Shown: one piece after another, positions 3,237 through 62,789 of the stretch
How the letters are laid out: the number at the start of each line of letters is the position of its first letter
How positions within the stretch are numbered: position 1 is the first letter of the stretch
Assembly (NCBI GenBank): GCA_032622095.1
Contig: CP136065.1
Coordinates: 52,571,949-52,635,948 of the forward strand
Origin: Siphonodentalium dalli
Taxonomy: Eukaryota; Mollusca; Scaphopoda; Gadilida; Siphonodentaliidae
Direction: 5' to 3'
DNA length: 64,000 bases
Notes under the pieces: model-generated
Databases searched by the model: none
The model's input: the letters and a program-made list of their open reading frames with translations, nothing else
What the model was told of the DNA's origin: nothing
Position numbers and translations under genes: made by a program

Positions 3237-3364
3237 TTATTTGTCTTTACTGTTTTGGTGATTCGTAGCATCTTTCTTCGGCGGCATTCGCTCATTCAGT
3301 TTGTCTAAACATTTAGCTTCTTCAAAACCACTTATTTTGTGTGTAGGTGAGACTCCGCTAAATG
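3237..3364 (-). CDS. CanA: Calcineurin A exon 13 (autoinhibitory segment and stop)
   Basis: Acceptor CTTTTTCAG at 3365, preceded by a long T tract on the minus strand. Encodes [20 protein letters not shown] then [21 protein letters not shown] and stop TAA (3239-3237). It aligns with the vertebrate [22 protein letters not shown] autoinhibitory segment that occupies the active site without calmodulin. Cys464 replaces the usual Gly and KK replaces RR. The tail after the segment is short (about 10 residues). The stop overlaps an AATAAA hexamer (3241-3236), too early to be the likely poly(A) signal. Confidence 0.95.

Positions 3365-62789: not shown

Follow-up and report, generated by a model that had tools for sequence, protein, structure and literature searches.

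Proteins of the calcineurin A (CnA) family are Ca2+/calmodulin-activated Ser/Thr phosphatase subunits. The CnA of the abalone Haliotis diversicolor is given as a protein of 515 residues with an autoinhibitory domain at 451-474, leaving 41 residues after it (PMC7151749). For the moth Plutella xylostella, cloned full-length CnA is reported to be without phosphatase activity and its catalytic part to be active (PMC3821638), which fits autoinhibition. Linker 2 is described as a hotspot of alternative splicing in vertebrates and nematodes, and the human alternative exon 13 encodes ATVEAIEADE (PMC12503234). Among the papers listed by the literature searches, none was seen to describe how a CnA gene of a mollusc is divided into exons and introns.

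The window analysed here, namely the whole stretch of DNA (64,000 nucleotides), contains a CnA gene that is an ordinary, well-reconstructed orthologue of a well-known gene. Biologically this is routine: animal calcineurin A has been known for a long time and its structures have been solved. The locus adds a gene model for one further animal calcineurin A, and a 13-exon gene spread over 60 kb proved reconstructable from raw sequence by the sequence-only reading that preceded this work.

Exons, introns and reading frame

The CnA gene lies on the minus strand and runs from 62789 to 3237 in 13 coding exons separated by 12 introns. In order to find the exons, calcineurin motifs scattered in order along the minus strand were located and the flanking frames were then read; two missing exons were located by search, with matches at 18748 and 6526. 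The coding exons are:

62738-62789, minus strand: exon 1, 52 bp, residues 1-18; start ATG at 62789-62787; alignment support from 62768 on
51627-51827, minus strand: exon 2, 201 bp, residues 18-85; open frame and alignment
37273-37397, minus strand: exon 3, 125 bp, residues 85-126; GDIHG and GDYVDRG; open frame and alignment
33683-33794, minus strand: exon 4, 112 bp, residues 127-164; RGNHE; open frame and alignment
30572-30717, minus strand: exon 5, 146 bp, residues 164-212; HGGLSP; open frame and alignment
29345-29484, minus strand: exon 6, 140 bp, residues 213-259; NTVRG; open frame and alignment
26158-26235, minus strand: exon 7, 78 bp, residues 259-285; RAHEAQ; open frame and alignment
21573-21667, minus strand: exon 8, 95 bp, residues 285-317; SAPNYLD; open frame and alignment
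19868-19993, minus strand: exon 9, 126 bp, residues 317-359; the larger part of the predicted CnB-binding region; open frame and alignment
18670-18747, minus strand: exon 10, 78 bp, residues 359-385; the last part of the predicted CnB-binding region, and linker 1; open frame and alignment
8999-9083, minus strand: exon 11, 85 bp, residues 385-413; putative calmodulin-binding stretch (taken as 391-413); open frame and alignment
6430-6527, minus strand: exon 12, 98 bp, residues 413-446; linker 2; open frame and alignment
3237-3364, minus strand: exon 13, 128 bp, residues 446-487 and TAA; putative autoinhibitory stretch (taken as 454-477); alignment support down to 3267

The joined exons comprise 1,464 nt, i.e. 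487 sense codons and a TAA stop. Both the end points and the codon count agree with the 13-exon CnA gene proposed earlier, as does the upper limit on exon size, the longest exon being 201 bp; the 13 junctions claimed with it should read 12, the number that 13 exons give. The start ATG is preceded by an in-frame stop codon, and no other ATG lies between the two. All 12 introns have GT-AG borders and measure 1,087 to 14,229 bp, with exit phases of 1,1,0,1,0,2,2,1,1,1,2,1. Their donors match 6 to 9 of the 9 letters of the consensus MAG|GTRAGT, the weakest being donor 12 (6/9).

The model was compared with a purpose-written splice-aware protein-to-DNA alignment, in which the query was the form of human calcineurin A-alpha without human exon 13 and the target was the window. 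This alignment returned the identical 12 junctions whether splice sites were weighted (score 1912) or not (1881); the plus strand scored 44 and 20 first-order Markov controls scored 43-63. It spans 62768 to 3267 only; for 7 residues at the N-terminus and 9 at the C-terminus, support comes only from the open frame. Of the 470 residues aligned with human CnA-alpha, 392 (83.4%) are identical.

It had also been predicted that an annotation based on open reading frames (ORFs) would miss the gene or call only fragments of it. This is borne out: the window has 12 ORFs of 100 aa or more, and a single one of them, at 51559-51915, covers a CnA exon. When exon frames are read from the first ATG, GTG or TTG, 4 of the 13 CnA exons give at least 60 aa. 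Such a miss is to be expected of animal genes with many introns in general.

Identity and domains of the encoded protein

In the comparison with PDB, calcineurin A (4orb) is matched over residues 7-479 at E 3e-283. Chain 9b9g, which is listed first, owes its E of 0 to matching the query in two stretches. The best non-calcineurin chain among the best 60 of 92 rows, sorted by E, is labelled PP1-gamma and matches over the core only (E 1.7e-71). Pfam assigns PF00149 to the protein at 6.9e-42, a family that we take not to be PP2B-specific. The PPP phosphatase core is present with its metal-binding and phosphate-binding residues (PF00149; 9 of 9 residues). The nine active-site residues checked by their human numbering are all conserved, and the calcineurin motifs follow one another in order on the minus strand. 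NCBIfam gave three matches, all to bacterial phosphatase models and all far under the cut-off (best 1.2e-06).

Downstream of the core, residues 319-367 form a predicted CnB-binding region that aligns with the human one without gaps. They are followed by a putative calmodulin-binding stretch at residues 391-413 and, near the C-terminus, by a putative autoinhibitory stretch at residues 454-477; the boundaries of these stretches were chosen by us.

Since the PPP core is common to PP1, PP2A and PP5 and PF00149 is not known to single out PP2B, the gene might be thought to encode another phosphatase of the PPP family. The matches to calcineurin A (E 3e-283), however, continue through the CnB-binding region, the calmodulin-binding stretch and the autoinhibitory stretch, as against 1.7e-71 over the core for the best other phosphatase listed; the gap points to PP2B and to no other PPP phosphatase, and the probability of the latter is negligible. 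That the locus is a non-functional pseudogene, a reading in favour of which nothing turned up, is likewise highly improbable, given 487 codons without frameshift or internal stop, GT-AG borders at 12 of 12 introns, 9 of 9 active-site residues kept and 83.4% identity to the human protein. In addition, the presence of twelve introns argues against a processed copy. With the exon set, open frame, motifs and close sequence match demonstrated, the gene is almost certainly that of a calcineurin catalytic A subunit (PP2B, PPP3C family) of an animal, probably an invertebrate. An animal source is suggested by the structure of the gene and its long introns.

The fold, activity and regulation of this CnA are taken from the family. 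On that basis, the spliced product would adopt the fold of a metal-dependent Ser/Thr phosphatase and its helix would bind calcineurin B. The C-terminal autoinhibitory stretch would hold the phosphatase off, and Ca2+/calmodulin would release it from this autoinhibition.

Repeats and candidate additional exons

An element of 380-399 bp is present in four copies (19045-19443, 32913-33310, 34874-35253 and 51004-51402), which sit, in coordinate order, in CnA introns 9, 4, 3 and 2. Each copy has 18-bp exact terminal inverted repeats beginning with TTAA and contains two near-palindromes of 69-71 bp; we presume that the element is a piggyBac-type MITE, which it resembles. The palindrome arm TATATAAGAGAATGCATTGGC occurs at 26 places with at most one mismatch, compared with a mean of 0.00 in 100 shuffles, and these places include 9783-9803, 51229-51249 and 29272-29292, the last of which follows the exon 6 donor at a distance of about 50 bp. 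Among the repeat families (20 of 35 listed), the dispersed family D2 has nine copies of 124 nt, which consist in part of inverted halves (GAATGAGGTC..CCAGAGGGTGAATTT), at places that include 3682-3805, 25884-26110 and 47722-47845. Two tandem arrays, at 22363-22786 and 25124-25485, have units of 151 and 147 bp and are related to each other (family D8). Minisatellites were seen in two introns: in intron 1, at 55430-55500 and 59127-59289, a G+C-rich 22-bp unit is identical in both places and lies on opposite strands, and in intron 11, at 7273-7401 and 8234-8344, a 16-bp unit of the GGCTCATACGGACCCT type is likewise found on opposite strands. Our impression is that the repeats of the window look bivalve-like; one repeat arm had no exact match when searched against prokaryote genomes and viral contigs.

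Searches of the window gave no Rfam match at the gathering threshold and no tRNA with ARAGORN. Among the 11 non-CnA ORFs of at least 100 aa, none of the 9 that were compared with Pfam at 0.1 was matched (40530-40835 and 63468-63803 were left out).

One of the D2 copies (3682-3805) mimics a 33-bp exon. A first alignment, in which the human letters included human exon 13 and gap cost was linear, placed an extra exon of that length at 3786-3754. We rejected it: it sits inside the D2 copy, its pyrimidine tract is weak (5/12), and it is gone when the human query is used without exon 13.

The site at which human exon 13 (PMC12503234) is inserted coincides with the position of intron 12 here. A scan of intron 12 for sequence resemblance found no vertebrate-type cassette like ATVEAIEADE, although a cassette of different sequence may exist. 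Specifically, the ungapped scan of 3000-9100 for ATVEAIEADEAIKG, run with no shuffled control, has its best score of 15 at 3185, outside intron 12, and scores of at most 14 within it. Candidate cassettes of 15-150 nt that lie in frame between an AG and a GT number 115 in intron 12, and of the 25 best none was judged outstanding. Reading through into intron 12 or intron 11 reaches a stop after 10 or 4 residues, respectively, and no calcineurin tail was recognised in either extension.

Copies of the CnA exons themselves were sought by an ungapped scan of the window with 10 controls per exon. On the minus strand, the second-best places for the 13 exons score 0-29, whereas the exons in their own places score 126-336, or 78 in the case of exon 1. 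These second-best scores are below the control maximum for 12 of the 13 exons, exon 12 being one point above it (25 vs. 24). On the plus strand, the best place is above the controls for exon 3 (28 vs. 25), equal to them for exon 1 (29) and below them for the other 11. None of these places was accepted as a mutually exclusive exon copy.

The C-terminal tail and comparison with known calcineurins

The gene had been called complete, and this holds for the coding frame only, which is open from start to stop. The main doubt about the term comes from the C-terminal tail, which is so short that a further last exon may exist. Only 10 residues follow the 24-residue stretch that is taken as the autoinhibitory one, compared with 33 by alignment in human 1aui (a 521-residue chain). 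Either the source animal has a short tail or another last exon exists.

On an alternative reading, the main transcript would continue past exon 13 as drawn: a splice within that exon or a further last exon would yield a longer tail, closer to the 33 residues of 1aui and to the 41 given for abalone (PMC7151749). The tail does contain a GT at 3250, and acceptors beyond it at 3035 and 3120 would lead into frames that stay open for 26 and 41 residues. This GT, the only one in the tail, is however a weak donor that agrees with the consensus at 5 of 9 positions. Furthermore, the two frames were picked from 19 candidate rows (at least 9/14 pyrimidines and at least 8 residues), and among the downstream frames within the window, scanned for acceptors down to position 100, there is no convincing partner exon for this donor. 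CnA length also differs between animals, that of Plutella being given as 495 residues (PMC3821638). We therefore regard a longer tail of this kind as unlikely. That the CnA of the source animal ends 10 residues past the autoinhibitory stretch, with neither a tail of 33-41 residues nor a vertebrate-like linker-2 cassette, is put forward tentatively, as possible rather than probable. If true, the combination of a short tail and no linker-2 cassette would mean that autoinhibition may be tuned differently.

In its domain order, the gene matches human calcineurin A alpha (PPP3CA; PDB 1aui, 4orb), from which it differs by one additional residue in linker 1. Abalone CnA has the full domain set, as here, and is given as 80% identical to human CnA-alpha, compared with 83.4% over the aligned part of the protein described here (PMC7151749 for the abalone value). 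The same source, compared by description, puts the abalone protein at 515 residues against 487 here. The absence of a polyproline N-terminus is shared with the mollusc CnAs that it describes, but equally with human CnA-alpha. Finally, Plutella xylostella CnA, also compared by description (PMC3821638), has the same domains as the CnA reconstructed here and a similar length (495 residues).
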